From Anaerolineae bacterium (lineage in GTDB: Bacteria; Chloroflexota; Anaerolineae; Promineifilales; Promineifilaceae): a stretch of 64,000 nucleotides of DNA. The position numbers were made by a program, and so were the translations under genes. Below are positions 24,870 through 50,611 of the stretch, one piece after another; position 1 is the first letter of the stretch, and every line of letters begins with the position of its first letter. The notes below the pieces were generated by a model, which was not told the origin of the DNA, made no database searches, and saw nothing but the letters and a program-made list of their open reading frames with translations. Location: positions 1 to 64,000 of the forward strand of contig JAHBVI010000008.1 of assembly GCA_019637635.1 (NCBI GenBank). The letters are read 5' to 3'.

Positions 24870-27752
24870 TCACCTCCGGCCAACGGCCACAAACGGCGCC
24901 CAAAAGTAGGGATGGGGGTATTCTGCTTTAAGAGCCAGTTGGGACTCTCGCAGCGCAGTAACCGGACTCACCCCTTCAGCGCGTAATCGTGCATACCAGT
25001 CAGCCATCAAGCGGGCCGTGGTCTCATCCTGCGCCAGCCACAAGGTGACGACGACGGTGGCCGCGCCGCTGCCCAGAAAGGCGCGCAGCAGCCCCAGCAT
25101 TTCGTCGCCGCCCATCACCTGGCTGCGCCCCGTCTCGCAGGCGCTCAACGTAACCAACGCCTGGCGCAGCCGCAGGTGCATGGCGTCGCCCGCCGTCAGC
25201 CAGCCATCGTGCAGTTTCAAAGCGGAAAACATGGGGTTATCCGCCCGGAACAAGCCATGACAGGCCAGATGCAGCATATCGCAGTCGGCCGCTGCCGCCC
25301 GCAGCGCGGCCAGGGTAGCTTGCTCGTCTACCAGGGTTTGCGCCTGCGGCAGGTGAGCGGCCACGCTCTCAATTTCAGCGGTGACGGCGGGAATGGATGG
25401 GTCAGACACGCCAACGACCAATGCTTTGTGTGCGGCCGTAGCCGCGGCCATCGCCGGACGTTGCTGGCAATGCCAGGCGATGGCGGCGCTGGGCGCGTAG
25501 GCAATCTCAAAGCGGTCAATGAGATAATTCTGCCCATCAAATAATGCCTGGAAAGGTATCTGGTGTAAACAGCCGTGGGGGATGATGGTCAGTTTAGGCG
25601 CGGTGTGGTGGGTTACGGCCGTGTCCAATTCCTGCGCCAGCGGCGCCACCAACGCCTGGTACAGCGCCGCCAATACTCGCCGCGCCGATAGCTCCAATGC
25701 TACCATGTTGTCGCGGCTAAACATGCCCGCTGCCCGCAGCCGATCCAGCAAGCCGCTCAACCGCCGCCATAACGCCTGCACCGCTGACGCCTGCCCCACC
25801 GACCGTACCACCTGTATTGACTGCTGTTTAATGACAAAAGCGATGATTTCGTCTTCTATTATATGGTAGGCCAGCAGCGTGGTATCTTCAGGCAAATGGC
25901 CCTGCACGGTTTCCAGGGGGAGAGGCGTGGCCCACCATTCAGCGGCGTCGCCGATAGCCGCCAGCCGCAGCCGGAGCTGGCTAATGGCGTTTTCGAGTTC
26001 GGCGGCGCGGGACTGGATGGTTTGCTGCTGGTCGGCTGGCCGGCTCTGGCCGCCGTCCAACATTTCATTGTAAATGGCATTCAGGTCAGCCTGTAATGCC
26101 TGTAGTTGGGCTGCTTCCGGCGTTTCTGCCTGGCCGGGGGTATCGGCCGTGATTACGCCGCTGATCAAATCCAGCAGTGCGCGTGATTTGGCCTGCTCGG
26201 CGACGGTGAAGGCGCGGGCCATGTCTGCTTCGGCCAGATACAACTGCATCAGGTCGTTATAGGCAGCCACTTTGTCATGCAGGAAAGAGGTGCGCATGGT
26301 TTCCTGGGCCAGGGTACCACGCAGCCGCTCTATTTCGGTAATGGCCGCCTCTAGCAGCGTCCGGGCTTCTTCGTGGCGACCTTGCAGACGACACAAACGG
26401 CCGTGCCGCTGTTGCAGCCGGTAGCGCAAGGGTGGCAGGTTGAGCGGCCGCGCCAGATGGTGGGCGGCCAACAGGTGCGTTTCCGCCTGGGCCAGATTAT
26501 CCTGGGTCAGGTCGGCCAGTTGCAGGTGCGCGTAAATGGCCGGGACGAGCCAATCCTGGCCGGTGACAAGGGTGAGGGCGTGGCTGGCGGTGGACACGGC
26601 CGTGTCCCGCTGACCACGCGCCGCCTGCACCGCTGCCTGCTCCAACAGGATGGTGGCTAAGAGCGGGGTGGGTGCGTCTGACGTGGCTTGCAGCAGGGCA
26701 ACGGCTTCCGCCAACACCTGTTCCGCCTCATCCAACTGCTTCTGTGCCAACAGCGTGGCCCCCAGCCCCCACAAGGCGCGCGTCCGCTGATGCACGGCGC
26801 CGGCCGCTTCCAGCAGTTGGGCCGCTTCCTCAAAAGCGGCCTGAGCTTCGGGGTAGAGGTTGAGCGTCAGGTAGGCAGTGGCGGTGTCCAACAATAACAC
26901 GTGCTGGTCTACCAGTACATCCAGCGAAGTGAACAGGCGGCGGGCCTGCTCAAAAGCGGCCAGGCTTTGGCTGTAACGACCCAACAGTAGTTGGGCGCTG
27001 CCGATGTTGCCCAGACTTTGTGCTTGCAACATGGTTAGACCGGCGGCGGTGCGAATGTCCAGGGCGTTTTCCAAAGCGGCCAGGGCTTCGCTGCCCCGGC
27101 CCATTTCCCACAGCAGCACGCCGCGATTGTTGCTGATGTCGCTGGCCTGGGCCGTCATGCCCTGGCTGAGGTAGGTGTTTTCAGCGGCGTCATACACGGC
27201 CAGCGCCTCGGCGTATCGCCCGGTCAGGCTGTAACACATGCCCATATTTTGCTGGATGAGAGCAGCCAGGGGGGTCAGTTCGGGTTGGTCCATTGCCTTT
27301 ATTTCGGCCAGCGCCTGTTGCCCGGCGGCCAATGCTTCCTGGTAACGGCCGGATTCCCCCAGGACGTGCATGAGGCCGGCGGTGGTGCGCAGCGCCGGGA
27401 CGGGTTGGCCTAAGGCTTCGTAGCCGGTGCGGGCGGCTCTGATCAGTTCCAGCGCCTGATCAAATTCGCCAGCCAGGGCGTGGGTTTGGGCCTGAATGTA
27501 GGCGGCGCGGGGGGCAATGTCCGCCAGGCCCGGTTGCCCGGCTACGGCCGTGCAGAGGAGTGCCAACCGGCGCGCCTGCCCTGGATTGCTGCGCACCAGG
27601 TTGGCGGCTTCATCCAGTAGACAGAACCAGGTGGTTTCGTACCATAAATCGGATTCTCGCAGGAAGGCTAACTGCTGAGTTTGCGTGGGCAGCGCCAGCA
27701 ATTGCTCTATCAGTACCGCATCAATCCCGATTTCCTGGCAGTTGTCATTCAT
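24870..27752 (-). CDS. TPR-CHAT caspase-like protease (third gene of ECF operon 1)
   Basis: A 960-residue cytoplasmic protein. Residues about 80-480 are TPR repeats (for example GRYAEALAVYDAAENTYL), then a helical linker, then a C-terminal CHAT domain (about 650-960), a clan CD caspase-like cysteine protease. The predicted dyad is His832 in HLACHG and Cys872 in TLSACETG, followed by GGDEMLGLLRAFL and a C-terminal PYFWAPFVAVG end typical of CHAT proteins. Its ATG overlaps the stop of the upstream regulator gene by 4 nt, so translation is coupled; the ECF sigma gene is first in the operon. CHAT proteins in other systems act as site-specific proteases in signalling or defence (Csx29 in type III-E CRISPR, some gasdermin-linked proteases). 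Here the nearest candidate substrate is the middle gene product. The domain call is firm; substrate and trigger are inference. Confidence 0.92.
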   Translation of the reverse strand: MNDNCQEIGIDAVLIEQLLALPTQTQQLAFLRESDLWYETTWFCLLDEAANLVRSNPGQARRLALLCTAVAGQPGLADIAPRAAYIQAQTHALAGEFDQALELIRAARTGYEALGQPVPALRTTAGLMHVLGESGRYQEALAAGQQALAEIKAMDQPELTPLAALIQQNMGMCYSLTGRYAEALAVYDAAENTYLSQGMTAQASDISNNRGVLLWEMGRGSEALAALENALDIRTAAGLTMLQAQSLGNIGSAQLLLGRYSQSLAAFEQARRLFTSLDVLVDQHVLLLDTATAYLTLNLYPEAQAAFEEAAQLLEAAGAVHQRTRALWGLGATLLAQKQLDEAEQVLAEAVALLQATSDAPTPLLATILLEQAAVQAARGQRDTAVSTASHALTLVTGQDWLVPAIYAHLQLADLTQDNLAQAETHLLAAHHLARPLNLPPLRYRLQQRHGRLCRLQGRHEEARTLLEAAITEIERLRGTLAQETMRTSFLHDKVAAYNDLMQLYLAEADMARAFTVAEQAKSRALLDLISGVITADTPGQAETPEAAQLQALQADLNAIYNEMLDGGQSRPADQQQTIQSRAAELENAISQLRLRLAAIGDAAEWWATPLPLETVQGHLPEDTTLLAYHIIEDEIIAFVIKQQSIQVVRSVGQASAVQALWRRLSGLLDRLRAAGMFSRDNMVALELSARRVLAALYQALVAPLAQELDTAVTHHTAPKLTIIPHGCLHQIPFQALFDGQNYLIDRFEIAYAPSAAIAWHCQQRPAMAAATAAHKALVVGVSDPSIPAVTAEIESVAAHLPQAQTLVDEQATLAALRAAAADCDMLHLACHGLFRADNPMFSALKLHDGWLTAGDAMHLRLRQALVTLSACETGRSQVMGGDEMLGLLRAFLGSGAATVVVTLWLAQDETTARLMADWYARLRAEGVSPVTALRESQLALKAEYPHPYFWAPFVAVGRR

Positions 27753-28369
27753 ACCGATAAGTCAAGAGGGGATATGGTTATTTCCCATTGGTCACTGCGT
27801 AATAGCATATCATATAAACCGATGGGTAGGGCGGTTAATGTGAATTCACCCAGGTCGTCTGTCAGTGTATGGTCAAATTCGGTATTGCCCTGGAAAAGCA
27901 GCACGTGAATCAGATCAATATCGCTGGCATCGGTGGGCAAGAACTGGCCGAGTAGATCAAACTGTTTGTCCTGGCGTTGTTGCAGGGTGCAAACGATGGT
28001 GGCGGCTTCGGCCGTATAGATGAGTTGGCGCTGGTCGGTGGGAGCTACGGCCGTGCGCACCCCCACCGCTAATTGGGTACGGCTATCAAACGTGAGAGCG
28101 GCGATCAGCGAACGCCAGGTTGAAGGGCGGCGCGACCGGGCAAAAACGGCAAAACGTTGTTCTAATTGGTCGGTGACGGCCGTTGGTGGTTCCTGCACGA
28201 TAATCAGCTGTCTGGCCCGATAGAAGGCGCGCAGCCAGGCCACGTCAGCCTGTATGTCTGCGTCCGCTGCCGCCACCTGTGCGGCCACCATCTGCGCCTC
28301 GTCGGGCGGCAGATGCCCTTCCAACCAATCCATTAATTGAGCAAATTCTGGTTTTTCATTCTTCTTCAT
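27749..28369 (-). CDS. Putative anti-sigma-like regulator between ECF sigma and CHAT protease
   Basis: A 206-residue protein starting at ATG 28369 with AGGAG 11 nt upstream. I do not recognise a named family. The first 45 residues (FAQLMDWLEGHLPPDEAQMV, then AADADIQADVAWLRAFY) resemble the helical sigma-binding segment of anti-sigma factors, but the zinc-binding His/Cys residues are missing. There is no transmembrane segment. The C-terminal 110 residues look beta-rich and end with a carboxypeptidase-regulatory or B-domain-like pattern (DDLGEFTLTALPIGLYDMLL). It is second in the operon, 85 nt after the sigma gene and overlapping the CHAT gene by 4 nt. Its position and its counterpart in the second triad suggest that it holds the sigma factor and is the CHAT target; this is not demonstrable from sequence alone. 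Confidence 0.7.
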   Translation of the reverse strand: MKKNEKPEFAQLMDWLEGHLPPDEAQMVAAQVAAADADIQADVAWLRAFYRARQLIIVQEPPTAVTDQLEQRFAVFARSRRPSTWRSLIAALTFDSRTQLAVGVRTAVAPTDQRQLIYTAEAATIVCTLQQRQDKQFDLLGQFLPTDASDIDLIHVLLFQGNTEFDHTLTDDLGEFTLTALPIGLYDMLLRSDQWEITISPLDLSV

Positions 28370-28454
28370 GTATGCAAAGCTCCTTCTTGGCCGCAGGTTT
28401 ACTACAGGTATGGTGAGCAAGGAGATAAAAAATACAATGGCGGCTGAGGTTCAC

Positions 28455-29000
28455 CTATCGTTCACCCATAATCTGCCGCAGGCGCAGCAGGCAGCGGGCG
28501 CGCATGGGGCCAATGCTGCCCACCGCCAATCCCATCCGGTCAGCCACTTCGCTGTAGGCTGGCTGCTGCGGGTCAAAATAAAGAGCCAGGAGCAGTTCAC
28601 GGCAGGTACGGTCTAATTGAGTCAGACCATCATCCAGCCAGTTGATTAATTCCCATTGTTCTTGCTGGTACTCACTGCTTTCATCTACCAAGACTATTTC
28701 GCTTAACGGTTCGTCTTCCAGATTTTCGCGGCGGCGACGGTTGAGCAGGTGCCAGGTGTTGCGCCGGGCGACTGTAGCCAGCCAGCCACCTAAATGGCTA
28801 TCTTTATGTAAATTTACCAGGCCATCGAGGAGCATGATGAAGGTGATTTGCATGATTTCGGCGGCATCATCGGCGCCGAGGCCATAGTTTAGGGCGATAG
28901 AAAAGACCAGGCGTCTATACCTGGTCACCACATGGTTCCAGGCCTGTTCATCACCCTGCTGGCAGGCTTGAATTAAATCCCAGTCAGACATTTCTTTCAT
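28455..29000 (-). CDS. ECF-type RNA polymerase sigma factor (operon 1)
   Basis: A 181-residue sigma-70 family factor of ECF size with region 2 (about 22-85: VTRYRRLVFSIALNYGLG, DDAAEIMQITFIML, WLATVARRNTWHLLNRRRR) and region 4 (about 125-180: LDRTCRELLLALYFD, then YSEVADRMGLAVGSIGPMRARCL). There is no region 1.1 or 3. It heads the operon with the regulator and the TPR-CHAT gene. ATG 29000 is used; a second in-frame ATG is three codons later and neither has a strong ribosome site. It should direct RNA polymerase to a small regulon, probably including its own operon. I could not identify the promoter sequence it recognises. Confidence 0.92.
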   Translation of the reverse strand: MKEMSDWDLIQACQQGDEQAWNHVVTRYRRLVFSIALNYGLGADDAAEIMQITFIMLLDGLVNLHKDSHLGGWLATVARRNTWHLLNRRRRENLEDEPLSEIVLVDESSEYQQEQWELINWLDDGLTQLDRTCRELLLALYFDPQQPAYSEVADRMGLAVGSIGPMRARCLLRLRQIMGER

Positions 29001-30252: not shown

Positions 30253-31437
30253 TCATGTTCGGCGCTGCTCTTGCTTCAGTGCTGTAAATTCGGCGCGCAG
30301 GCGGACAGCCATCGCATCGTCAGGATATTTTTCCAAATAGCCAATGGCCTGGTCGAGATAGGACACGGCCGTTTCCCCTTCTCCCTTCGCCCCATACAAT
30401 TCTCCCAACGTACCCAACGTGTTGGCTAACATCAAATCATCGCTGGCAACGGCCCACAGACGTGCGCTTTCCTGCAAACAGACCCCACTTTCCGCCAGTT
30501 GGTCTTGTTTCAGCAAAGCATTACCCAGGCATTGCCACACCAGGGCGCGTTGATGAATGTGAGGGGAACGCTGTAGATAAGGCGTATTAGCGCGGCGGAA
30601 GGCGGCTTCCGCCTCCGGGTAGCGTCCTAACTCGAACATCGTCCCACCCAGAGCTACTTCAAACATAATGCGATCAAATTCACTGCTGACTACCTCAAAA
30701 TAGGGAGCGGCCCCCTCATAATAATCCAGTGCCAGGTCATAACGCTTTTCAGCGCGGGCTACGCCTATCAGGTTGTTGAGCGTCCGTAAGAGGTCTGTGG
30801 TGCGGCCAAGCTGGCGATAGTGGGCGACGGCCGTTTCCAATCGCTGCCGGGCCAATGTCAGGTCACCACGATGGTAAGCAATCAGTCCCAACTCATTCCA
30901 GATACCGGCATACCACTTGTCTCTTGCTTGCTGCTGCTCAAAACCGGCCAGCGCCTGCAGCCCATATGCTTCGGCACTGTCATATTGGCGCAAATGGCGG
31001 TGGTCGGCGCACAGGTAGAAGCGGCTTTGGCTCAGCAGGTGGGCATCGCCAAATATCTGAGCCATTTGCTCGGCCTGCACGTGAACGGCCACAGCCTGCG
31101 GCAGTTGACGCGCAGCCTGATACAAATAACCTAACCGGTGGAGAAGTTGTATTTTCAGGCGCACATCATCCTGCGCCCATTCATTGGCCGCCTGTTCCAG
31201 AACGGGTATCCATTCCGGCCAGTATCCCCGGCGTTCCACCAGGTAGAAGGTGTTGAGGGCGAGTACGGCCGTGTCCGGCCAAAGCTCCGGCACGCGCTGC
31301 CCATATTGCACCAACCGGTAGATGTTTTGGCGTTCGGCGTCTAACCGGCGAATCGCCTCGTCGGAGTTATCCTCCGTTTGCGCCTGCCAGTAGCGCAGAC
31401 CGGTCTGAAGACTTTGCAGGAATTGGGGCGTGGGCAT
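30253..31437 (-). CDS. TPR protein, probable separated C-terminal part of the NB-ARC protein
   Basis: A 394-residue helical-repeat protein with TPR units such as LGYLYQAARQLPQAVAVHVQ, RHLRQYDSAEAYGLQALAGF and ALLKQDQLAESGVCLQESAR. Its start, with residues such as RRLDAERQNIYRLVQYG, resembles the region that follows the NB-ARC domain in bacterial NB-ARC-TPR proteins. The ATG 31437 is in the same frame as the NB-ARC gene immediately upstream; only one TGA and 14 open codons separate them, and that segment lies inside an inverted repeat. It is therefore probably the sensor half of a gene split by repeat insertion. Whether the two halves still work as separate subunits is unknown. Confidence 0.82.
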   Translation of the reverse strand: MPTPQFLQSLQTGLRYWQAQTEDNSDEAIRRLDAERQNIYRLVQYGQRVPELWPDTAVLALNTFYLVERRGYWPEWIPVLEQAANEWAQDDVRLKIQLLHRLGYLYQAARQLPQAVAVHVQAEQMAQIFGDAHLLSQSRFYLCADHRHLRQYDSAEAYGLQALAGFEQQQARDKWYAGIWNELGLIAYHRGDLTLARQRLETAVAHYRQLGRTTDLLRTLNNLIGVARAEKRYDLALDYYEGAAPYFEVVSSEFDRIMFEVALGGTMFELGRYPEAEAAFRRANTPYLQRSPHIHQRALVWQCLGNALLKQDQLAESGVCLQESARLWAVASDDLMLANTLGTLGELYGAKGEGETAVSYLDQAIGYLEKYPDDAMAVRLRAEFTALKQEQRRT

Positions 31438-31449: not shown

Positions 31450-31504
31450 GGAGATTGAGAGATTGGGAGACTGAGTCTCTCAATCTCCCAATCTCTCAAT
31501 CTCC
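31450..31504. repeat. Inverted repeat that separates NB-ARC and TPR coding parts
   Basis: 21-bp perfect arms (31450-31470 and 31484-31504) built from iterated GAGATTG/GGGAGA words, with a 13-nt loop. It encodes the last residues of the NB-ARC protein (EEIERLGD), supplies the in-frame TGA (31480-31482, in the loop) and stays open afterwards up to the ATG of the TPR gene. Confidence 0.85.
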
Positions 31505-32925
31505 TCTATAGGCCAGTGAATAATCTCTGTCTGCAAAAATGTTTCCGTCAGGCGATGAATACCGTACCGTTTCTCTTGCAGCGTGCCGCGCACTTCCAGC
31601 AAGGAGCGGTGGCGTAGCTCTTGCAGCGCCGGCCACAGTTCCGCCTCCGGCAGGCCGCTGAGCGTGTGCAGATATTGTGGCAGCCCACCCGATTCGGCCA
31701 CCAGGGGCATGGCCTGTAACAACTGGCGCGCCGATGGGCTGAGCAGGTTCCAGGTCTGCCAGTAGATGTGTTTGTACATCTCTTCCACCGCCCCCACCGG
31801 GCTGTGGCTGAGCGTGGTCAATATCTGGGAAAGGGGCAGCAAGTCCAGCAGGCTGACCACCAGTTTAAGTGCCAACGGGTTGCCGCCGACGACCTGGTAA
31901 ATTTGGGCCATGTCGGCGGCGGTGGCTGTTTCCATCACCTGGATGCCCACGTCACGGGCGTGATGGTGCAGCAAGGCGGCGGCATCGGCCGGCGATAGTT
32001 CATCTACATTGAAGCTGAACACGGCCGTTTGCTCTGTAGGCCGAGTGCGCGTGGTCAGCAGGAATTTACTGGGGTCGGCCAGGTCGTGCAGATGGGCCAG
32101 CAGGTAGGCCGTGTCGGTTTCGTTTTCCAGGTTGTCAATGATGACCAGACACGGCCGTGCCTTCAATGCCTGCCGCACCTGTGACAGCCGTTGGGTAAAC
32201 GAGCTGGCCTCCGTCGCTTCCGGCCACAAACGACCGGCGATGGTGGTGATCAGGTCTTCATATAAGACCTGCGGCGAACGCGCCTGCCCGCTCATGGTGG
32301 ACGGTTCTGAGCGCGCCCAGACAACCTGGGCAAAGGCAAACCGGCCAAGCGCCTGGCGGGCAACAGCGTCAGCCAGCGTGGTTTTGCCAATACCGCCAAT
32401 GCCCACCAGGGCAATGACCCAGGGGGTTTCGGCACGGAGGAGCAATGTTTCCAATATCGTCTGCGCCTCTTCCAGACCAAACAGCCGGGTGTAGGTGGCA
32501 GGTGGCAGTTGCGCCTGTAGCTGCTGTGCCCGTTCCTGGCGGTGGGTTTGTTCACGGCCGTAGAGAATGCTCGCCAATTGCTCAATGGCCACACGCTGCA
32601 AACGGCTGACGCTGTGTTCGCTGACGTTGAGTTTATTGGCCACCGCCATCAACGTATTGTCGTCAATGAACCGGGCGCGCAAGACGCGGGCAGCCGTCTG
32701 ATCTTGGGTTTCCAGTTCGTCAATGGCCTCCAAAAGCACCTGGTTGGTGGCCAGACGCCGTGACGCCGGGCTGCCATCCTGGGCAACGGCCGTTTGCCTC
32801 TCCTGCACCAACAACAAATCAGCCAGCAAATCGGCCTGGGTTCCGCCGGTGCTGTGCCAGGCGCGCAGCGCAGCGTGTACGTTGGTTTGTAACTGCTCTT
32901 TACTGAACGGCAGCAAATCGCTCAT
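31480..32925 (-). CDS. NB-ARC (STAND) NTPase with N-terminal sigma-4-like helix-turn-helix
   Basis: A 481-residue STAND-class NTPase. Start ATG 32925 has AGGAGG 5 nt upstream; the frame is open further upstream but that part is not credible coding sequence. Residues about 78-120 (VLRARFIDDNTLMAVANKLN, SEHSVSRLQRVAIEQLA) look like a sigma-70 region-4-type helix-turn-helix. NB-ARC spans about 148-420 with Walker A GIGGIGKTT (Lys181), Walker B CLVIIDNLE (about 259-267), TTRTR sensor 1 and GGNPLALKLV (GLPL-like). A winged-helix follows (LLQAMPLVAESGG, HRLTETFLQTEI). It ends at a TGA inside an inverted repeat, with the TPR part continuing in frame as a separate gene. Such proteins couple ligand sensing by repeats to a DNA-binding or effector N-terminus, in regulation or defence. 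Role here unknown. Confidence 0.88.
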   Translation of the reverse strand: MSDLLPFSKEQLQTNVHAALRAWHSTGGTQADLLADLLLVQERQTAVAQDGSPASRRLATNQVLLEAIDELETQDQTAARVLRARFIDDNTLMAVANKLNVSEHSVSRLQRVAIEQLASILYGREQTHRQERAQQLQAQLPPATYTRLFGLEEAQTILETLLLRAETPWVIALVGIGGIGKTTLADAVARQALGRFAFAQVVWARSEPSTMSGQARSPQVLYEDLITTIAGRLWPEATEASSFTQRLSQVRQALKARPCLVIIDNLENETDTAYLLAHLHDLADPSKFLLTTRTRPTEQTAVFSFNVDELSPADAAALLHHHARDVGIQVMETATAADMAQIYQVVGGNPLALKLVVSLLDLLPLSQILTTLSHSPVGAVEEMYKHIYWQTWNLLSPSARQLLQAMPLVAESGGLPQYLHTLSGLPEAELWPALQELRHRSLLEVRGTLQEKRYGIHRLTETFLQTEIIHWPIEEIERLGD

Positions 32926-33189
32926 ATTGTCCTCCTGGTCAGGGCTACTACTATAACGACGATGGGAGCCACTGCCAAAGCACAGGTTAGCGCAGGTTTT
33001 TTCCTTTTGGCGCAGGAGGTGGCCGAAGCGTGGCAAATCAGAAATGGGAAATGGTTTTATACTCTTCCTTAACCAGATGTGGCAGGCACATCTGGCCGCA
33101 ATTTTTGTGCCATTTAGAGGATAGCCAGTTTGGGGGAGGTATGGGGGAGCCATCTTTTTAGCCATCACCAGGGCTTACTTCTGGTATTG

Positions 33190-38641: not shown

Positions 38642-38645
38642 ACCT

Positions 38646-39842: not shown

Positions 39843-39851
39843 AAACTTTCT

Positions 39852-39895
39852 TGAATGAAAATAGTTGGCCGGTGCCGACCAACTATTTTCATTCA
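39852..39895. repeat. Inverted repeat across the stop of the TolB-like gene
   Basis: 17-bp perfect arms (39852-39868, 39879-39895; TGAATGAAAATAGTTGG and its complement) with a 10-nt loop. It includes the stop codon of the upstream gene (39889-39891) and ends 10 nt before the start of the next gene. It could form a terminator-like hairpin or tune readthrough in the zinc-ribbon cluster. Confidence 0.75.
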
Positions 39896-42222: not shown

Positions 42223-42234
42223 GCTGTGCCCGGT

Positions 42235-42268
42235 AGATTGGCTCAATGTTTGTAGATTGACCCAATCT
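42235..42268. repeat. Inverted repeat after zinc-ribbon membrane gene
   Basis: 13-nt arms with one mismatch (AGATTGGCTCAAT / ATTGACCCAATCT), 8-nt loop, directly behind the stop codon of the gene at 42268. It is made of the AGATTG word found in the other intergenic repeats; it may terminate or attenuate transcription before the TolB-like gene. Confidence 0.55.
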
Positions 42269-42996
42269 TACGCTGGGAATTCCATTGTTTTATCAGAAGC
42301 AACTTCTGTGTCTGACTTTAATGCATGACCGCAGTAACCACAATAGCTCATCGCCGCCTGATTCAAAAGGCCGCAGTGCAAACAGGCCCGCTGCCCACTA
42401 TCCACCTTTGGCGTGTCCATACGGATGCTGCCCAACCAGCCGGGCAAGGCATCATAAATCACCTTGCCCGCCCAACTCAGCAGAATGATGGCCAGGATCA
42501 CGAGTATCACCCGCAGCGCCAGAATAAAATCGCGGGGGTCATCTACCAGTTCGATGATCACCGGCAGGAGCGCCCGGTAAGCCAGGGATAGCAATACCAC
42601 ATAAATGATGCCCACCAGCGCGGGCGTCAGGGAGGCCAGGGAAGGAAAAGCCGACGCCCAACCGATGCGCACTGTTTGCGTATACCCGATGAGCAAAACA
42701 AATGCCGCTGCATAGGCGATGAAGGTGATCAGTTGTTCTACGGCAAAGGGAACCTCTGGAATAAGCAACCCTTCCACAAAGGAAAGGTTGACCAGGATGC
42801 TACGCAACAGCCAGATCAGCAACAGGGCAATAAACAGTCGGGCCGTAGCGATGCCCAATTGTCGTCGCATGAAGTTGGTGGGCGAGACGGCCGTCTCGCC
42901 ACTGCCCGCCACCTGTCCGGCCAATTCCTGGCCACAACTAATACAAAAGCGGCTTTCGGGGCTGTTTGGGGTGTTGCAATTGGTACAGATAATCAT
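42268..42996 (-). CDS. Multi-pass membrane protein with N- and C-terminal zinc ribbons
   Basis: A 242-residue integral membrane protein. N-terminal zinc ribbon (CTNCNTPN, FCISCGQE; 4-24) and C-terminal zinc ribbon (CLHCGLLN, YCGYCGHA; about 206-226) flank four hydrophobic helices (about 52-72, 82-106, 118-142, 158-182). With an even number of helices both ribbons would lie in the cytoplasm. I do not recognise a named family. It is in the middle of a co-oriented series of zinc-ribbon genes; the ribbons may be protein-protein docking sites shared by the products. Confidence 0.8.
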   Translation of the reverse strand: MIICTNCNTPNSPESRFCISCGQELAGQVAGSGETAVSPTNFMRRQLGIATARLFIALLLIWLLRSILVNLSFVEGLLIPEVPFAVEQLITFIAYAAAFVLLIGYTQTVRIGWASAFPSLASLTPALVGIIYVVLLSLAYRALLPVIIELVDDPRDFILALRVILVILAIILLSWAGKVIYDALPGWLGSIRMDTPKVDSGQRACLHCGLLNQAAMSYCGYCGHALKSDTEVASDKTMEFPA

Positions 42997-43152
42997 GGTT
43001 TCCTCCTTATTTTTATCTATTTTCAGGCGCTAACAAAGGATATTGTTATTTGCCCTGAATGCTTCTGATGGTTTTGGGCGACAGCCACTCACTGGGCGAC
43101 TGTTTTTCGTAAGCGGCATCCATCGGGCGCGTGCCAATGGATGCGTTCACAA

Positions 43153-44004
43153 CTAATTGAGGTGATGGCCACACTCCGTACAAAAGGCGGCGCCCTCCGT
43201 CAACAACGCACCACAGACCGGGCAGGCGGCTGGTGCGGGTAGTGGTGATGGTTCGTCAGGTAGGCTGATTACGGCCGTGTCCTCTTCAGCCTCCATCGCT
43301 ACATCTGGCGCATCTATGTCGCTGGCAGGCGGGAATGGATCAGGTACGGCCACTTCGGCGGCGCTCAGTGCAAGCGTGTCCCCAACTCCAGCCGCCTCTT
43401 CAGCTTTTGCTTCAGGCGTGACTACCTTGTGCCCACACTCTGTGCAAAAGAGTGCATCTGGCAACAAGGGTACACCGCAATGGGGGCAGGGGTTGGAAAC
43501 CGGGGTTGCCGCCGCCGCGAGCGGCACGCTCTGGCCGCAGTTGGCACAAAACCGCGCCCCAGGCTGCAACGGGGCGTGGCAGTGCGGGCAGGCCAGCCCG
43601 GTGGGCGGCGGCACGTCTATGGCTCGCGCACCGCATACCTGGCAGAAATTGTCCTGCGGCGCAACCTGGCCATGCCCGTTAGGGCAGATGTGGCCGTATT
43701 GGATGCCGGCCACGGCCGCGTCCACAAAAACCTCTGCCTTGATGCGCTCAATTTCCTGTTCATGCGCTGAAATTTGGGCAAATACCGCTGCCAGCCGGTC
43801 GCAGGCTGCTTTTAGCTCCGGCTGGGCCACCTGTTCTTGCTGGTACAGGGTATAGGCCACCCGCCCCACCTGGGTATACACCTTCTCCGTCTCCTGGTTC
43901 AATGACCGGATTTTGAGTTGTATGGCCTGTGTCCGCCGCAGTTTATCGGCTTCAAACGCCGCCTTGCCTGCCCCCGAACGCACCCGATTAAAAAAATCAC
44001 TCAT
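43153..44004 (-). CDS. Soluble coiled-coil protein with four zinc ribbons
   Basis: A 283-residue protein. Residues 1-95 are a charged helical region with coiled-coil character (IRSLNQETEKVYTQVGRVAY, ISAHEQEIERIKAEVF). Four treble-clef-like ribbons follow: CPNGHG/FCQVCGA (about 107-128), CPHCHAPL/FCANCGQ (about 138-157), CPHCGVPL/FCTECGH (about 172-193), and, after an acidic spacer (200-255), CPVCGALL/FCTECGH at the C-terminus. There is no membrane segment. It is probably a cytoplasmic scaffold for the adjacent membrane zinc-ribbon proteins; no enzymatic motif is seen. Confidence 0.82.
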   Translation of the reverse strand: MSDFFNRVRSGAGKAAFEADKLRRTQAIQLKIRSLNQETEKVYTQVGRVAYTLYQQEQVAQPELKAACDRLAAVFAQISAHEQEIERIKAEVFVDAAVAGIQYGHICPNGHGQVAPQDNFCQVCGARAIDVPPPTGLACPHCHAPLQPGARFCANCGQSVPLAAAATPVSNPCPHCGVPLLPDALFCTECGHKVVTPEAKAEEAAGVGDTLALSAAEVAVPDPFPPASDIDAPDVAMEAEEDTAVISLPDEPSPLPAPAACPVCGALLTEGAAFCTECGHHLN

Positions 44005-44065
44005 ACTATGCCTCCGTTAATCTTTATTGGTCGCTACGTGAAGCATCCGGGGCTGCCCGTCATCA

Positions 44066-44527
44066 TCACGGCAAACGTTGTTCTATAATAGTCGCCGTGC
44101 GGCGGGTATTCTCCTCAATATCCAACAGCACCGAAATACTTTCGCCAATGACCCGCCAGAAGATGTAAATAACCCCAGCCCAAATGAGCGAGCCTACCAG
44201 CAGGCCCAGCGCCGTAAAGAAAGAATCAGCGAGACCAACAAAAAAGCCACCAACACCTCCTAGAACCGCCAGACCGGCGAAGATATACGCCAGCAGTCGG
44301 CAGAAAGCAGCGATGCCGCGCAGGGCAGCAAACTTGCTTTCCACGCGGACTGAGGAAGGGGCCACGGGCATACCCCCCATTCGCGGCGGCGTAACTGGCG
44401 GCACGTCAGGGGGTGGCGGGTCGGTCAAGGCCGTTGCCACCCGCTCCAGTTTGCTACCACACTGCTTACAAAAATTGACCGTCCCCACATTCTCCGCCCC
44501 ACAGTTCTGACATTGAATTGTGTTCAT
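44066..44527 (-). CDS. Zinc-ribbon membrane protein (small)
   Basis: A 153-residue protein starting at ATG 44527, with GGAGG 7 nt upstream. N-terminal zinc ribbon (CQNCGAEN, FCKQCGSK; 6-26), a Pro-rich linker (30-55), two transmembrane helices (about 68-95 and 103-125) and an amphipathic tail (EENTRRTATIIEQRL). Same architecture class as its neighbours. Function unknown. Confidence 0.8.
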   Translation of the reverse strand: MNTIQCQNCGAENVGTVNFCKQCGSKLERVATALTDPPPPDVPPVTPPRMGGMPVAPSSVRVESKFAALRGIAAFCRLLAYIFAGLAVLGGVGGFFVGLADSFFTALGLLVGSLIWAGVIYIFWRVIGESISVLLDIEENTRRTATIIEQRLP

Positions 44528-44548
44528 CCACAACCTCCTATGAATCAT

Positions 44549-44575
44549 GGTGGCTGGTGACTGATACCAGCCACC
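44549..44575. repeat. Intergenic inverted repeat (GGTGGCTGGT type)
   Basis: 10-bp perfect arms (GGTGGCTGGT / ACCAGCCACC), 7-nt loop, followed by further degenerate copies of the word (accaaccaccagctactaacc). It lies between two zinc-ribbon genes of the cluster. Confidence 0.6.
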
Positions 44576-44628
44576 AACCACCAGCTACTAACCACTATGT
44601 TGTGCCGATAAATCAGTCATCTGGGTCA

Positions 44629-45366
44629 TCATTGTTTATAACCGCAAGTGGGGCAGAATTTGGCCTGGGGGCTTAACTGCGTACCGCAGTTGGCGCAAAA
44701 GGCCGTCTGAACTGGCGCCACCTGTGGCGGAGAGTAGCTATTTTTCTGCCGGTAATACCAGAACCCGCCGCCCAATCCACCCAATACCAATACGATAAGG
44801 AAAAAGGTGGCAAAACCTGACCCGCTTTTTTCGGTCAGCACGGCATTCATACGGCCGTTGGCATTCGCCCACTGCACCGTGCCGTTATTGAGTTTCTCAC
44901 CGTTGCTGGAAATGATTTCACCGCCCTGCAGCGTCAACGTATCACTGTTGGCGCCCACCAGATTGCGGGATCCGAAATAGGAGAAGTTGATTTGCCGACG
45001 GCCGTCAACCTCTGTTGCTGTGATCGTGGCGTTATCTTCAAACACGATCTCATTCAGCAGTTCTAAGCCTTCGCTCTCGACTTCGAACGTATATATCAGG
45101 GTGGCATCTTCGCGGCTGGAGTTCCACTTAACCTGCGCGCCTTCTGCTTCCCATTCAGCGACCTGCTGCGCGATCTCGGCTTCAAGCGATTCGGGCGAGG
45201 CGGCCAATAGGGCCACCAGATCAGCCGGAAAGCGAATTTCCATCTCTGCTTTCCAGGCTTCGTCGCGGTAAAACGTGACGCGCCGGTCAATATCCGCGCC
45301 GCAGCCAGCCAGGATAAACGTCACCGCTATTAAAAAATAGAGGAAAAGAGAAGATTGTTTTGGCAC
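44629..45366 (-). CDS. Lipoprotein with C-terminal membrane helix and zinc ribbon
   Basis: A 245-residue protein. The GTG at 45366 is preferred because AGGAGGG lies 4-5 nt upstream. A signal peptide ends in a lipobox LAGC (about residue 22). The extracellular part (25-180) is beta-rich and resembles DUF3153-like lipoprotein domains (VTFYRDEAWKAEMEIRFPAD at its start). A transmembrane helix (about 190-208, FATFFLIVLVLGGLGGGFWY) is followed by a C-terminal zinc ribbon (FCANCGTQ, FCPTCGYK) in the cytoplasm. It is the first gene of the zinc-ribbon series on this strand and reads away from ECF operon 2. Confidence 0.8.
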   Translation of the reverse strand: MPKQSSLFLYFLIAVTFILAGCGADIDRRVTFYRDEAWKAEMEIRFPADLVALLAASPESLEAEIAQQVAEWEAEGAQVKWNSSREDATLIYTFEVESEGLELLNEIVFEDNATITATEVDGRRQINFSYFGSRNLVGANSDTLTLQGGEIISSNGEKLNNGTVQWANANGRMNAVLTEKSGSGFATFFLIVLVLGGLGGGFWYYRQKNSYSPPQVAPVQTAFCANCGTQLSPQAKFCPTCGYKQ

Positions 45367-45582
45367 GATAACCCTCCTGCACCAATGCACGATGCTACCG
45401 GTCATCCATTCGATTTCTGGTATCAGGAACAGCGCCAGTTCCGAAATAAAGGTCGAAAGTGATTTGCCTGGATGAAGGGTATGACTATATTGGCAATAAG
45501 CAGTTTAATGGAACTACTGTTTTTGCTCACGTGACAATGCTCATGTAATTGTAATGATCTAATCTGTACATCAAAGTTAAGG

Positions 45583-45702: not shown

Positions 45703-45731
45703 TTTTCATGGGCAGCAGCATCCTCTATAAT
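45703..45731 (+). promoter_or_regulatory. Possible sigma-70-type promoter for ECF operon 2
   Basis: TTTTCA (45703-45708), 17-nt spacer and a perfect TATAAT (45726-45731), about 38 nt before the ATG at 45769. By-eye match only; the -35 box is weak. Confidence 0.35.
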
Positions 45732-45768
45732 CTTTGCCATCAAACTGCACACACCGGCAAAGGCGACC

Positions 45769-46554
45769 ATGATGAGTTGGGACGAAAAGGCAGTGATAGC
45801 GGCGCTGCACCAGGCCATTCAAATAGTAGCTATCCAGAGAGGGGAGGATTTCGCTCATAGTATCACCCCCATCATTCTGGCGAACCTGGATAGGGGCCGT
45901 GTGCAACACTTTCTGGACAATGCGGAAAATCGCCGGCCGGAAGAGTACGTCTGGCGGGTGGTGGAATTCTATGAAAAGTGGCAGCTCTATCTCTACCAGA
46001 TTCAGGAAGAACGGCTCACCGACCTATGGCTGCCCTTGTATGACAAACTCAAATGGTGGGCCTATAACTATCTTTGTCGCCAAAAATTTCCCCCTACGCA
46101 CAACGAAAAGCAGGAAATGGCCGCCGACTGCGCGGCCGCCGCGGCCGCCCAGCTACTCAACGCCCGTTTTCCCTATGATACCGATTTTGACCCCTGGGCT
46201 TACGTCTTGCTGCAAACCGTCACCTTGAAGCAGCTACACAGGCGCTATGCGGAAGCACCTGATGAGATGCACCAGATAGATGATTGGGATGCCTGGGAAG
46301 GGGTATGGCCGCAGCTATCTACCCCTGGCCCCGAAGGTACGGTCGAACTACGGCACACGTTGTTGACGGCCGTTGACCAGTTAACCTCTGACGCCCGCAA
46401 ACAAATCATTCTCATGCGTTATTTTGAGCAGATGACGTTTCCCGAAATTGCGACAGCCCTTAACCGGAGCAGCAGCGCCATTCACAAGCTGCATTTTGAC
46501 GCGCTGCAAAACCTGAGAAAGATTTGGGCTGATTGGCAGGATAAATATGAGTAG
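45769..46554 (+). CDS. Sigma-70 family (ECF-like) sigma factor (operon 2)
   Basis: A 261-residue sigma factor, longer than the usual ECF size because of an N-terminal helical extension (about 1-75). Region 2 is divergent (about 75-160: KWWAYNYLCRQKFPPTHNEK, DTDFDPWAYVLLQTVTLKQL); region 4 is clear (about 200-255: LTSDARKQIILMRYFEQMTF, EIATALNRSSSAIHKLHFDA). It starts at ATG ATG 45769/45772 with AAGGCGA upstream. It heads a three-gene operon, overlapping the next gene by 8 nt (ATGAGTAG). Same gene order as ECF operon 1, but low sequence similarity by eye, so the two triads are old paralogues or separate acquisitions. Promoter specificity unknown. Confidence 0.88.
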   Translation: MMSWDEKAVIAALHQAIQIVAIQRGEDFAHSITPIILANLDRGRVQHFLDNAENRRPEEYVWRVVEFYEKWQLYLYQIQEERLTDLWLPLYDKLKWWAYNYLCRQKFPPTHNEKQEMAADCAAAAAAQLLNARFPYDTDFDPWAYVLLQTVTLKQLHRRYAEAPDEMHQIDDWDAWEGVWPQLSTPGPEGTVELRHTLLTAVDQLTSDARKQIILMRYFEQMTFPEIATALNRSSSAIHKLHFDALQNLRKIWADWQDKYE

Positions 46555-47365
46555 AGCAGATAGCGAAGAAGCGGCGTCCGGTTGGATTCGGCAAAAATTG
46601 GCTACATTGCGGTCGCAGGCCGTGGGGCCAGGGCAATGGCCGGCCCTGGCTGACCAGTTGCTGGCCCTCGTCGCCGGGCAGATGCCATCGCCAGAAACTG
46701 ACGAAAGTGACATGGAGATGTTTTCATTGGTATTGCATGACGCCCTGATGGGCGTGGATATCAGCGAACGCTACCCCACATTTTGGGGCAGGATGATGGC
46801 CGCTCCCGCCCTATACCAGACCTTTATTGAGGCGCTGTCCCTGTTGGAGACAAACGGCCGTGACACCCCCCCACCTCTCCCCGCCGCCACCATCAACGAG
46901 CTAACCTTTCTGCAAAAGAGGCCCGCACCCCAACCAGAAATTGCCCAATCCACCAGCGGCGGCTGGCGCGTTACCTGGCAGGTGCTTTTTGACCAGCTCC
47001 AACAACTGCTCTTCCCCACGCCTGACCTGGTTTACCGCTACGCTGCCCCTTTGCTGGAAGATGAAAGCGTCATTCTCCTGCACGATGGGGTGACGATAGC
47101 GGATCAATCGGTGGAAACGCTGCTGGAAGCGATCCGGCCGGTAGAGCAGCCCGAACTGCTGCGCCTGCAACTGCTGACCGCCGCCGAAACACCACTGCCG
47201 CCGTTGCAAGCCAGCCTGCGATGGGGCGGCTATGCGCACACGGCCGTCCTCGACGCCTACGGCCGTGCCCACTTCCCCCCCCTGCGCCTGGACGACATCC
47301 TGGACGAAGCCGGGCAACTGCGCGCCACCGATCTGCAACTCGTTCTGGAATCGCCACAAAGCTGA
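46547..47365 (+). CDS. Putative anti-sigma-like regulator of ECF operon 2
   Basis: A 272-residue soluble protein without a recognised family. The N-terminal half is helical (WPALADQLLALVAGQMPSPE, FSLVLHDALMGVDISERYPT), followed by a Pro-rich linker. The C-terminal half (from about 145) is beta-rich and ends like the middle protein of operon 1 (AHTAVLDAYGRAHFPPLRLD, DLQLVLES). There is no transmembrane segment and no zinc motif. It is translationally coupled to the sigma gene (8-nt overlap) and followed 12 nt later by the CHAT gene. Proposed to bind the sigma factor and to be cleaved or controlled by the CHAT protein; this is inference from order and from the parallel triad. Confidence 0.7.
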   Translation: MSRADSEEAASGWIRQKLATLRSQAVGPGQWPALADQLLALVAGQMPSPETDESDMEMFSLVLHDALMGVDISERYPTFWGRMMAAPALYQTFIEALSLLETNGRDTPPPLPAATINELTFLQKRPAPQPEIAQSTSGGWRVTWQVLFDQLQQLLFPTPDLVYRYAAPLLEDESVILLHDGVTIADQSVETLLEAIRPVEQPELLRLQLLTAAETPLPPLQASLRWGGYAHTAVLDAYGRAHFPPLRLDDILDEAGQLRATDLQLVLESPQS

Positions 47366-47377
47366 TACAATAGCCCC

Positions 47378-50300
47378 ATGGGGCAACATCCTTCGGCGGC
47401 GGCTTACCTGGCAGAGGCAGAACGGCTCTTTCACGGCCGTCTGTCCCCAGAAAGCCTGCCCCATCTGGCCGCCCAACTACCCCTCTTAGACCGCCCCTTA
47501 TTAGACCACCTGGCCGATTATGCCGACCAACTGGCGCTGACGCAGCCCAAACATGGCTGGGCAGTCACGGCCGTAGCCGAAGCCGCCGCTGCCTACACTC
47601 CTGATCTCTTTCTTCATGGTTTGGCCGCCTGGTACATCGCCCGCGCCGCCAACGCCTGGGTACGGCCGCAACTGGTAGAAGCCGCTATTGCCCGCGCCCG
47701 CACTGCTTTCGCCCAATTAGACGAACCCGGCTGGCTGGCCGCCTGCGACTGGCAGCAAAACGCCCTGCCCTGGACGCGCCCCAACTTCCAAGACGCCGCC
47801 GCCACATTAAGCGACGCCCTGCACAGCCTGGAAACTGCCGGTTTTGACCACTTGCTCCCCGACTGCCGCCTTTCCCTGGCTTATGCTTACCTGTTGATCG
47901 GCCAGTTTGAAGAAACTGCCGCGCAAATAGCGCAGGCTGAACAAACCTTTCAAGAAAGAAATGACCGCCTCAGCCTGGCTCGCTGTTTATTCATCAAAGG
48001 CAGCTACCTGCGCCGCCAGACCTATTTTGAGGCGGCCAGGGATTGTTTTGCTGCCGCCCTGACGCTTTTTGCGGAACAAGATGCACCCATTCAGGTCGCC
48101 ATCACCACGTTGCAGTTAGGATTGATTAGCTGGTGGTGGCAGCATGATTTACGAACGGCAGAAAGCAATTTGCACCAGGCAGCCCGCCAGTTTGAGGCTT
48201 ATGACCTCCCTCTGTGGTTAGCCCAGTGCCATTTTGGACTGGGGCAAATTTATCAGCAGACAGGCCAACTTACTGACGCCGACAAAACACTGCGTACCGC
48301 CAGAGAAACATTTGCCCATTTCCGCCTGCCAGGACTTTGGGCTGATTCTTTGTTGGATAGCGGTTGGCTGGCGCTCTATCACGGTCACTATCAAACCAGC
48401 CTGGATTACTTCCGGCAAGCGGAATCGCTCTATGAAGAGGTTGGCAATCGCTGGTTACCTGCGGTGGCTGCCATGCACCAGGGCGAAGCTTATTTGCAGA
48501 TGGGATGGTATCAACGCGCTCTGCAATACCTGGAAAATGCACACGGCCGTTTGCTGGAATTAGCCATGCCGCAACGCATAGCCGCCTGTGAAATGCGGCT
48601 GGCTCAACTCCATTTACAGTTAAGCCAATATGACCAGGCGCATCTGTATCTTAATGAAGCCGAAACCCATTACCACCAGTGTGGGCAGGCAGACGCTTTC
48701 CCCGTTGTTTACAACCTTCGCGCCGAACTGTTGTTTCAGGAGCGGAAAGAGGCAGAAGCCATTACTATCCTGCAAAAGGCGCTATCCGTTGCCGGGCAGC
48801 AAGAGGACGCGATGCAAATTGCGCGGGCGCAGCGATTATTGGGGCAGGCCTTATGCGCCGTCGGCTGTATGGACGAGGCTTACCCTTATTTGCAAGCCGC
48901 CCATGACGTCTTTACCGGGATGGGCATGGTGGTAGAACAGGCCGTCTGCCAGACTGCCTGGGGCCATTATCACCAGCAGATGGGGAACATACCCGCCGCC
49001 CGGTCAGCATGGGAATCCGCTCTGGCCCTCAGCCACGAGGTGATACCGGACATTTCCTGGCAGGCACGGGCGGGACTGGCTTCTCTCAGTTTGGAAATCA
49101 AAGAAGCAGAAAGCGCCCTGTTACATTACCGGGAAATGGTCAAAGCGTTGGCCAACCTGCGCCAGGGGTTGTGGCAGCCATCCCTGGCCGGTTCTTTTCT
49201 GACGCGCCCTTCGCCGCATCTGGATACGGCCGTTCGCCTGGCCGCGCAGCAGCCCGCACACACAGAGATAGCCTTCGCCGATACGCTGTTTTTTATCGAG
49301 GCCGGAAAAGCACAAACAACCGCCCGGCAACTGGTGGCCGATAACTGGCAGCCTGTTGTGAAGAGCCAGAACAGCGAGTTGGCTGAGCTGGCCGCCGAAA
49401 TAAACTGGCTGCAAGAAAAATTGCGAACCGGGCCAACAACCGGCTCATTTGTGCTGGACAGAAACGGGCTGCACCAACAACTGGTGCAAAAGGTTAAAGC
49501 GTATGACAGGTTAAAAAGCCGCCTGGAACGGCAGCATCAGGGAAGTGCTATGCCAGGAGAGATAACGGCCGATTTCAACCAGCAGCAGTTCCGCCGCCAG
49601 GCCAACCAGAAATTGGGCCAGAACTGGATGGCCTTGAATTATTACCTGGCCGGGGAGGAGTTGGTGGGCACGATGTTGACGCCCACAATGCGCCGGGTCT
49701 GGTCTACGGCCGTTACCGGCCCCATCCATCTGGCGTTGCGCGCTGCCACCCGGTCTGGCGAGAGTGCGGGCGCGTTCACGGAACGTGCCCTGAACCGGTT
49801 AGGCAGTTGGCTGCTGCCGGGATGGCTACAGGAGAAACTGACGCCGGAGACGGTTGTGATCATCTCGCCTCACCGTCAGTTACACCGGCTGCCCTGGCCC
49901 ATCTTACGCCTGGAAGATAAGCCGCTGGTGACTGCCTGCATCCCCACTATCGTGCCTTCGTTGTTAGGGTTGGCCGGGCTGTGGCAACGGCCGTCGCCCC
50001 TTTCTCCCGGCCAGAATACCGGGCTGCTGCTGGCTATATCTGCTTTTCCAGGGCGGTATCCGGCGCTGCCAGCCGTCGCCGAGGAAGCGGACGCGCTTAC
50101 GTCTTTGTTGGGGGCAAACGGGCATTCACTGCGCAATAACATGGCCACCTGGCCCCATTTACAAACGCTGGCGGGGACAGCCGGTTTGGCTGCTCGCTTT
50201 ACCTTCTGGCACGTTGCCTCCCATGCCTTTTATGACGGGCTCTCCGGCCAGTTCAGCGGTGTGGCGTTGTCTGATCGGGACATCTGGCTGGACGAAATTC

Positions 50301-50611
50301 GGCAGTGCGGGCCACTGCCGCCATTGGTGACGCTTTCGGCGTGCAGCGGCGGCCACAGCCTGGTTTACGCCGGGGATGAACACGTCAGTCTCACCAACAC
50401 CTGCCTGGCAGCGGGCGCCCAGAGCGTCATTAGCAGCTTGTGGCCGGTGAGGGATGAAGCGATACCTGACTTGATGCAGTCGTTTTATCATTACTATGCA
50501 CAAGCCAATATGCGGCCGGCGCAAGCATTGGCTCTGGCCCAACGAGATGCTTATCATGCCGGTCACTCCCCGGCGCTGTGGGGAGGCTGGCAATGTTTTG
50601 GATTACCCTAA
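47378..50611 (+). CDS. TPR-CHAT caspase-like protease (operon 2)
   Basis: A 1,077-residue protein. Residues about 50-600 are helical repeats with clear TPRs in the middle (for example LSLAYAYLLIGQFEETAAQI, WLALYHGHYQTSLDYFRQAE). A coiled linker (about 660-720) leads to a C-terminal CHAT domain (about 750-1077). The dyad is predicted as His949 in HVASHAF and Cys989 in TLSACSGG, 40 residues apart as in the operon 1 protein. The end reads ALWGGWQCFG, the usual CHAT terminus. There is no Shine-Dalgarno in the 12-nt gap before ATG 47378, so translation may depend on the upstream gene. A strong hairpin follows the stop codon. Role proposed: stress- or ligand-sensing protease acting on the neighbouring regulator. 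Confidence 0.9.
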   Translation: MGQHPSAAAYLAEAERLFHGRLSPESLPHLAAQLPLLDRPLLDHLADYADQLALTQPKHGWAVTAVAEAAAAYTPDLFLHGLAAWYIARAANAWVRPQLVEAAIARARTAFAQLDEPGWLAACDWQQNALPWTRPNFQDAAATLSDALHSLETAGFDHLLPDCRLSLAYAYLLIGQFEETAAQIAQAEQTFQERNDRLSLARCLFIKGSYLRRQTYFEAARDCFAAALTLFAEQDAPIQVAITTLQLGLISWWWQHDLRTAESNLHQAARQFEAYDLPLWLAQCHFGLGQIYQQTGQLTDADKTLRTARETFAHFRLPGLWADSLLDSGWLALYHGHYQTSLDYFRQAESLYEEVGNRWLPAVAAMHQGEAYLQMGWYQRALQYLENAHGRLLELAMPQRIAACEMRLAQLHLQLSQYDQAHLYLNEAETHYHQCGQADAFPVVYNLRAELLFQERKEAEAITILQKALSVAGQQEDAMQIARAQRLLGQALCAVGCMDEAYPYLQAAHDVFTGMGMVVEQAVCQTAWGHYHQQMGNIPAARSAWESALALSHEVIPDISWQARAGLASLSLEIKEAESALLHYREMVKALANLRQGLWQPSLAGSFLTRPSPHLDTAVRLAAQQPAHTEIAFADTLFFIEAGKAQTTARQLVADNWQPVVKSQNSELAELAAEINWLQEKLRTGPTTGSFVLDRNGLHQQLVQKVKAYDRLKSRLERQHQGSAMPGEITADFNQQQFRRQANQKLGQNWMALNYYLAGEELVGTMLTPTMRRVWSTAVTGPIHLALRAATRSGESAGAFTERALNRLGSWLLPGWLQEKLTPETVVIISPHRQLHRLPWPILRLEDKPLVTACIPTIVPSLLGLAGLWQRPSPLSPGQNTGLLLAISAFPGRYPALPAVAEEADALTSLLGANGHSLRNNMATWPHLQTLAGTAGLAARFTFWHVASHAFYDGLSGQFSGVALSDRDIWLDEIRQCGPLPPLVTLSACSGGHSLVYAGDEHVSLTNTCLAAGAQSVISSLWPVRDEAIPDLMQSFYHYYAQANMRPAQALALAQRDAYHAGHSPALWGGWQCFGLP

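Follow-up and report, generated by a model that had tools for sequence, protein, structure and literature searches.

In type III-E clustered regularly interspaced short palindromic repeats (CRISPR) systems, the protease Csx29 cuts Csx30, an inhibitor that binds an extracytoplasmic function (ECF) sigma factor, in a flexible loop of the Csx30 C-terminal domain (PMC10028731; this and the other papers given by PMC number are cited from excerpts). According to the same source, the Csx30 N-terminal domain suffices for sigma binding, the C-terminal domain is recognised by Csx29, and neither fragment still blocks the sigma factor on DNA. For ECF54 sigma factors, with an example from Geodermatophilus, the excerpt of PMC8999054, a review from 2022, describes a group without an anti-sigma factor. 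Here we analyse 64,000 nucleotides of contig JAHBVI010000008.1 from an Anaerolineae bacterium (assembly GCA_019637635.1; this whole stretch is called the window), which carries two triads, each encoding a sigma factor, a middle protein, and a large protein with tetratricopeptide repeats (TPRs) and a CHAT domain. We consider it fairly probable that, in each triad, the middle protein is a soluble predicted anti-sigma factor that the TPR-CHAT protein likely cuts after a conserved linker arginine, which would free the sigma factor. This reading builds on the gene order, the His/Cys dyad, the triad 1 anti-sigma domain, the conserved arginine and recurrence in several phyla, all established at the level of sequence, and on middle-protein folds predicted by modelling.

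Two sigma, middle and TPR-CHAT gene sets

The original prediction held that the window contains two triads of like order whose genes overlap or nearly touch, with intact dyads (His832/Cys872 and His949/Cys989) and with middle proteins of no known family. Both triads are present in that order, the dyad positions are correct, and neither middle protein passes a Pfam or NCBIfam cut-off. The middle and CHAT genes of triad 1 overlap by 4 bases, and the junctions of triad 2 are an 8-base overlap and a 12-base gap. The features are:

28455..29000, minus strand: ECF-type sigma factor of triad 1 (P0001), 181 amino acids (aa); TIGR02937 59.3 bits, Sigma70_r2 34.1 bits
27749..28369 from an ATG start (open reading frame, ORF, from TTG 28420), minus strand: predicted soluble anti-sigma factor of triad 1 (P0002); hhalign, AlphaFold2 model, Foldseek and Protein Data Bank (PDB) sequence matches
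28055..28057, minus strand: codon for R122 of P0002, the invariant arginine of the linker and predicted site of cleavage; conservation across relatives
24870..27752, minus strand: TPR-CHAT caspase-like protein of triad 1 (P0003), 960 aa, dyad H832/C872; Pfam CHAT 205.4 bits, TPRs
21790..24786, minus strand: subtilase (S8) of triad 1; Pfam Peptidase_S8 165.1 bits, NosD/beta-helix, CBM96, signal-peptide-like start
45769..46554, plus strand: sigma factor of triad 2 (P0004), 261 aa; TIGR02937 45.7 bits, Sigma70_r4 38.8 bits
46547..47365, plus strand: predicted anti-sigma factor of triad 2 (P0005), 272 aa, with helical N-terminus, linker and beta domain; AlphaFold2 model with mean predicted local distance difference test (pLDDT) 68
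47036..47038, plus strand: codon for R164 of P0005, an arginine in the linker and predicted site of cleavage; conservation in the triad 2 family
47378..50611, plus strand: TPR-CHAT caspase-like protein of triad 2, 1077 aa, dyad H949/C989; Pfam CHAT 128.4 bits, TPRs

Both sigma factors exceed the TIGR02937 sigma70-ECF cut-off of 42.9 bits and thus class as ECF sigma factors, sigma 2 narrowly; Pfam matches are absent for region 2 in sigma 2 and for region 4 in sigma 1. Both large proteins combine a CHAT domain above the Pfam cut-off (24 bits) with the His/Cys dyad and are therefore predicted to be CHAT peptidases. For the middle gene of triad 1, called from TTG 28420, the ATG at 28369 is the better start because most homologues (about 206–210 aa) begin there; it leaves an 85-base gap after the sigma gene. 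The subtilase gene lies 83 bases past the CHAT gene of triad 1 and is likely the fourth gene of that operon. It went unmentioned in the earlier account, and a hidden Markov model scan finds no subtilase beside triad 2.

The middle proteins and their linker arginine

Relatives from other genomes were obtained by a sigma-only search (one genome per species, sigma alignment), in which the best 80 of at least 554 confirmed stretches were analysed; the loci counted below are these unless stated otherwise. Their middle proteins are soluble in 63 loci, membrane-bound by hydropathy in 13, and missing in 4.

The original prediction also had the middle protein hold the sigma factor. This part is supported for triad 1, whose middle protein is homologous to known anti-sigma domains in sequence and profile comparisons and in its model, and is predicted to be an anti-sigma factor, while the triad 2 protein is only weakly tied to such domains. 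Specifically, hhalign of the soluble triad 1 family against 11 membrane anti-sigma relatives (10 distinct) gives E 7e-21 and a probability of 99.3 over 81 N-terminal columns. Among seven soluble relatives scanned with Pfam, including two of the triad 2 type, zf-HC2 (cut-off 22.2 bits) is passed by two (L066, 27.3 bits; L105, 26.5 bits), just missed by one (L116, 19.5 bits) and found in none of the other four; L080 and L086, of the triad 2 type, miss it. Three long relatives carry zf-HC2 with FecR, zf-HC2 with DUF5667, and DUF5667 with zf-HC2 just under the cut-off. Sequence matches of the soluble family profile in the PDB include the anti-sigma factors DdvA (E 2.3e-4), RsiW (0.0025), RskA (0.031) and ChrR (0.76), and its C-terminal domain matches beta-sandwich proteins, e.g. 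NOMO2 (5.3e-11).

The AlphaFold2 model of P0002 (mean pLDDT 86) has four helices (26-34, 39-50, 54-72 and 80-96), followed by short strands (103-112), a loop (113-129) and a beta-sandwich (130-221). In Foldseek, the sole PDB chain reaching E <= 0.001 with this model is ChrR, the anti-sigma factor of SigE (2q1z_B). A CarboxypepD_reg match on P0002 stays at 15.3 bits, under its cut-off of 32.3. The Hx3Cx2C zinc motif is absent from both P0002 and P0005; it is reported missing in about 44% of class I anti-sigma domains (PMC7406223, excerpt). The same source has helix 4 of class I domains contact sigma region 2, and helix 1 contact region 4. By sequence, the triad 1 middle protein begins with an anti-sigma domain of class I that has no zinc site.

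P0005 shares the layout of P0002 (helical part, linker, beta domain) with weak homology. The profiles of the two families match weakly (E 0.0021, probability 13.5), and the linker arginines are aligned to each other in that match. Some relatives in the triad 2 family carry HxxxCxxC in the helical part; no anti-sigma factor is among the PDB matches listed for this family.

The arginine itself was followed in two samples, 79 aligned and distinct proteins of the triad 1 type and 63 soluble proteins from named loci (median pairwise identity 26%), which share a few genomes (e.g. L134 with L069, and L159 with L067). R122 is kept in 79 of 79 and 63 of 63, respectively. In the second sample it is directly preceded by V, L, M, F or I in 56 proteins, has Gly two positions before in 54, and is directly followed by S, G or A in 55. 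Middle proteins of Actinomycetota, including Nonomuraea, also carry a linker arginine (21/21). In the triad 2 family, R164 is kept in 11 of 11 sequences of one alignment (A4); in another (A6), 16 of 22 have the arginine at this column and the other 6 have it one residue on.

The arginine is predicted to sit in a loop in both models. R122 falls between the strand ending at 112 and the one starting at 130, in the segment linking the anti-sigma domain and its hairpin to the sandwich, and its ten-residue block has a mean pLDDT of 67, the lowest in the model after the N-terminal 20 residues. R164 is placed in a loop ahead of the beta domain (156-172; block pLDDT 53). We take the invariant linker arginine, a feature read from alignments, as new support for the idea of cleavage.

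As for the protease, we aligned 73 CHAT domains, 71 of them distinct (49 from named loci and 24 from class loci, the source genome and the window), and the H832/C872 dyad is invariant in all 73. PDB matches for the CHAT domain include Csx29, separase and the chain 8rot_B. CHAT has been reported as closest to separase (PMC9729208, excerpt), and several enzymes of clan CD are reported to cleave after arginine, among them separase, gingipain R, metacaspase and paracaspase (PMC4357240, excerpt).

Recurrence of the gene set and loss of the membrane part

A check proposed with the original prediction was whether the order of sigma, middle and CHAT genes is conserved in other genomes. The order recurs in several phyla, and Actinomycetota keep the set without keeping the order. 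By record titles, the 80 loci come mainly from Chloroflexota, Acidobacteriota, Planctomycetota and Actinomycetota, with a few metagenome-assembled genomes labelled Burkholderiales or Pseudomonadota, some unassigned records, and one Chthonomonadaceae that has no middle protein.

We find a CHAT gene in 50 of the 63 loci with a soluble middle protein and in 0 of the 13 with a membrane form. When only loci with at least 3 kb of downstream sequence are counted, CHAT is present in 50 and absent in 5 soluble loci, against 0 and 9 membrane loci (Fisher P = 7e-8). Among the nine genomes with membrane forms, three hold no CHAT match at all. A survey of 199 genomes of the class gives the same picture: the triad 1 middle type occurs at 28 places in 25 genomes (18 soluble, 9 long membrane forms of about 400-610 aa, and 1 without a domain match), and CHAT accompanies 16 of the 18 soluble forms and 0 of the 9 membrane forms. 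Where the anti-sigma factor has lost its membrane part, CHAT tends to stand in for it.

In 49 named loci the CHAT gene starts at most 300 bases past the middle gene, and a subtilase (S8) comes next in 40 of these. The sigma and middle genes lie 1.5-2.6 kb apart in 4 of the 49; for example, L143 (Blastocatellia) has a 512 aa repeat protein between them (7555-9093), with a similar gap in L156, L164 and L171. Within 296 genomes of the Rubrobacter marinus phylum (Actinomycetota), the middle protein is found in 18, at 20 places; 12 of these have a CHAT gene within about 5 kb, 11 of the 12 also a subtilase, and order and orientation vary.

The triad 2 family is found at 17 places in 13 of the 199 class genomes. 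Nine have CHAT, two have the start of a TPR protein at the end of the available sequence, two lie at contig ends without CHAT, two lack CHAT, and two consist of the helical domain alone. These lone helical domains are in L084 (5815-6171, minus strand, source genome contig C244, 118 aa) and L085 (5652-5981, plus strand, 109 aa); in both genomes an acyltransferase-like gene of one kind is the neighbour, and neither stretch contains a sigma or CHAT match.

The source genome has six CHAT matches, one of them inside a third sigma-middle-CHAT-subtilase set (contig C243). On contig C146 (L008), a sigma-like gene (8341-8973, minus) is accompanied by a middle-type protein (7352-8071, minus) that has both a zinc-type motif and an arginine in its linker, by a secreted-looking protein of 1169 aa, and by a CHAT gene in convergent orientation (1220-3676, plus).

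Other genes of the window may be noted. Beside triad 1, a protein of 562 aa (31480-33168, minus) combines an NB-ARC NTPase with a match to Sigma70 region 4, and a TPR protein follows (30253-31437, minus); we read this as a STAND-like regulator whose DNA-binding part resembles that of a sigma factor. The region between the triads (37580-45405, minus) encodes a series of zinc-ribbon proteins together with two proteins of the M14 carboxypeptidase type and a PD40 beta-propeller that carries a peptidoglycan-binding domain. At positions 1-891 there is a tandem repeat with a 33-base unit (25 overlapping copies of 99 bases), inside a minus-strand ORF (3-2315) that also matches a subtilase profile.

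A candidate switch compared with described systems

In the switch we propose, the anti-sigma domain would keep the sigma factor in the cytoplasm, and the beta domain would dock on the CHAT protein. The TPRs would sense a signal and thereby turn the protease on, and a CHAT cut after the arginine would part the anti-sigma domain from the beta domain. The remaining anti-sigma stub would then disappear, perhaps through the kind of further degradation that has been proposed for RseA, CalpT and Csx30. Once free, the sigma factor would transcribe its own operon and, in triad 1, also the secreted subtilase, which would be a natural first output of the switch. The two families may represent parallel modules, each with its own sigma/anti-sigma pair.

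Several observations weigh against this proposal. G158 and F193 are as invariant as R122 (79/79 and 63/63), and the Actinomycetota proteins (21 of 21) share another arginine, seven residues further along, as well as five more columns, so invariance alone is no mark of a cut. In the excerpt of PMC9729208, D2151 is said to be the separase residue that reads the P1 arginine; the corresponding column by spacing from the catalytic Cys, 913 of P0003, is acidic in 0 of 73 CHAT domains and Ala in 44, with an invariant Asp909 four residues away. The same source has Csx30 of one system cut after Leu407, which differs from the arginine site predicted here. It also has Csx30-N remaining on the sigma factor after cleavage, so that one cut may not release the sigma factor and a further step, e.g. 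degradation, is probably needed; for CalpT, such a further step has been proposed (PMC11417357, excerpt). At five loci with a soluble middle protein, the downstream sequence is long enough for a CHAT gene yet shows none next to it, and the arginine is kept all the same; the four genomes they come from hold 13, 15, 1 (a frame with an internal stop) and 12 CHAT matches elsewhere. Among the middle proteins, the ChrR fold match of P0002 has low template modelling (TM) scores (0.22 and 0.26), the profile link of triad 2 to anti-sigma factors is weak (hhalign E 0.009, probability 4.6), and the helical N-terminus is short in Actinomycetota. Finally, covariation on 67 pairs gives no clear interface.

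Some of these points also fit an unlikely alternative that deserves to be weighed, in which no cut is made and the CHAT protein controls the anti-sigma factor by binding: with the arginine loop as the contact, the TPR-CHAT scaffold would hold the beta domain and either pull the anti-sigma factor off or strengthen it, as a partner switch. An invariant arginine can serve as a docking residue, and the residue with which separase reads arginine is absent from the CHAT domains here. Moreover, the solved chain 8rot_B (991 aa) joins the DdvA anti-sigma N-terminus (identical to 8rlz over the aligned 48 residues) to a C-terminal CHAT domain, and because the two are joined in one chain, anti-sigma and CHAT parts can act as one unit; this fusion equally speaks for the cleavage reading. 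The Cys of 8rot_B aligns with the catalytic Cys of CHAT, the alignment shown ending short of the His. A dyad invariant in every aligned domain is nevertheless unexpected for a mere scaffold, and the small residue that follows the arginine in most relatives, in a loop of low model confidence, is what a cut site would have.

It is more doubtful still that the anti-sigma factor answers to metal, redox or a ligand of the beta domain, and that the CHAT protein is a sigma-induced downstream effector, e.g. a cell-death protease. The strict HxxxCxxC is kept by 21 of 63 soluble and 5 of 13 membrane relatives, and by 33 of 63 and 13 of 13 when one more residue is allowed after the His (H-x3/4); such motifs in soluble anti-sigma factors have been tied to redox sensing (PMC7406223). 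Yet even the looser motif is missing from 30 of the 63, and the two window proteins have no such motif either, while all keep the arginine; moreover, none of the 13 membrane forms is accompanied by CHAT. The suggestion of PMC8999054, from the carboxypeptidase/subtilase/CHAT context, that the proteases act directly on the ECF54 sigma factor with no anti-sigma factor is very improbable here, as sequence, profile and model all point to an anti-sigma domain in the triad 1 middle protein and the triad 1 subtilase, with a start that looks by eye like a signal peptide, would act outside.

Beyond the window, we tentatively suggest a CRISPR-independent caspase-sigma switch, possibly spread over at least four phyla, in which TPR-CHAT proteins would cut soluble, membrane-freed anti-sigma factors at a single invariant arginine and couple a cytoplasmic signal to transcription and a secreted subtilase; this switch might be the older one, with the Craspase-Csx30-CASP-sigma pathway as its CRISPR-captured offshoot and DdvA as its fused form. 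If this is true, the ECF54-like sigma/CHAT/subtilase neighbourhood, so far lacking a worked-out mechanism, becomes a pathway with a named substrate and bond, bacterial CHAT caspases gain a regulatory role outside CRISPR, there is a hint at the origin of the Craspase sigma branch, and the published account of these sigma factors as having no anti-sigma factor would need correcting.

With Craspase, or DiCASP (type III-E: Csx29, Csx30 and CASP-sigma), the triads have in common a TPR-CHAT protein, an ECF sigma factor and a two-domain inhibitor, in the triads a predicted one, that would bind sigma and be met by CHAT through its second domain (PMC10028731, PMC9729208), and by analogy the layout of the middle and CHAT proteins parallels that of Csx30 and Csx29. 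The earlier view that no CRISPR effector takes part finds support within the window: its CHAT proteins score 62.5 and 19.6 bits with the Csx29 model NF041237 (cut-off 300 bits) and do not belong to that family, and no CRISPR-like array was found, none of the three direct-repeat families of the window being array-like. A PADLOC scan of 16 window proteins yields no Cas7-11, the only Cas rows being two weak Cmr8 models on sigma 1 (E 0.013). Csx30 is not among the PDB matches listed for the middle proteins by sequence or fold, which excludes nothing.

In the CalpL/CalpT/CalpS system a protease likewise cuts the anti-sigma factor of an ECF sigma factor, but there it is a Lon protease with a SAVED sensor and a cA4 signal (PMC11417357). 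The class I anti-sigma factors ChrR, RsiW and RskA match the anti-sigma domain by model or sequence; the window proteins differ from them in the lost zinc motif and in having a beta-sandwich, an arginine linker and a CHAT partner. DdvA (PDB 8rlz), which we take to come from Myxococcus and to pair with DdvS, has an anti-sigma N-terminus like that of the triad 1 middle protein and, as 8rot_B, also a CHAT domain, the difference being that both parts are in one polypeptide.

In ECF54, CHAT, subtilase and carboxypeptidase-type proteins stand beside an ECF sigma factor (PMC8999054), so this context is not new. Triad 1 resembles ECF54 on gene neighbours alone, and with the sub-cut-off CarboxypepD_reg match counted as 'carboxypeptidase'; the Actinomycetota loci carry the same set. 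In a literature search that left the primary ECF54 papers and the DdvA structure paper outside its range, we did not find the anti-sigma and substrate reading, the arginine, or the link between CHAT and membrane loss. We argue that the 'carboxypeptidase' of the ECF54 set is an anti-sigma factor, and it is on this point that the triads part from the published account, with the carboxypeptidase-like protein read here as both anti-sigma factor and protease substrate.

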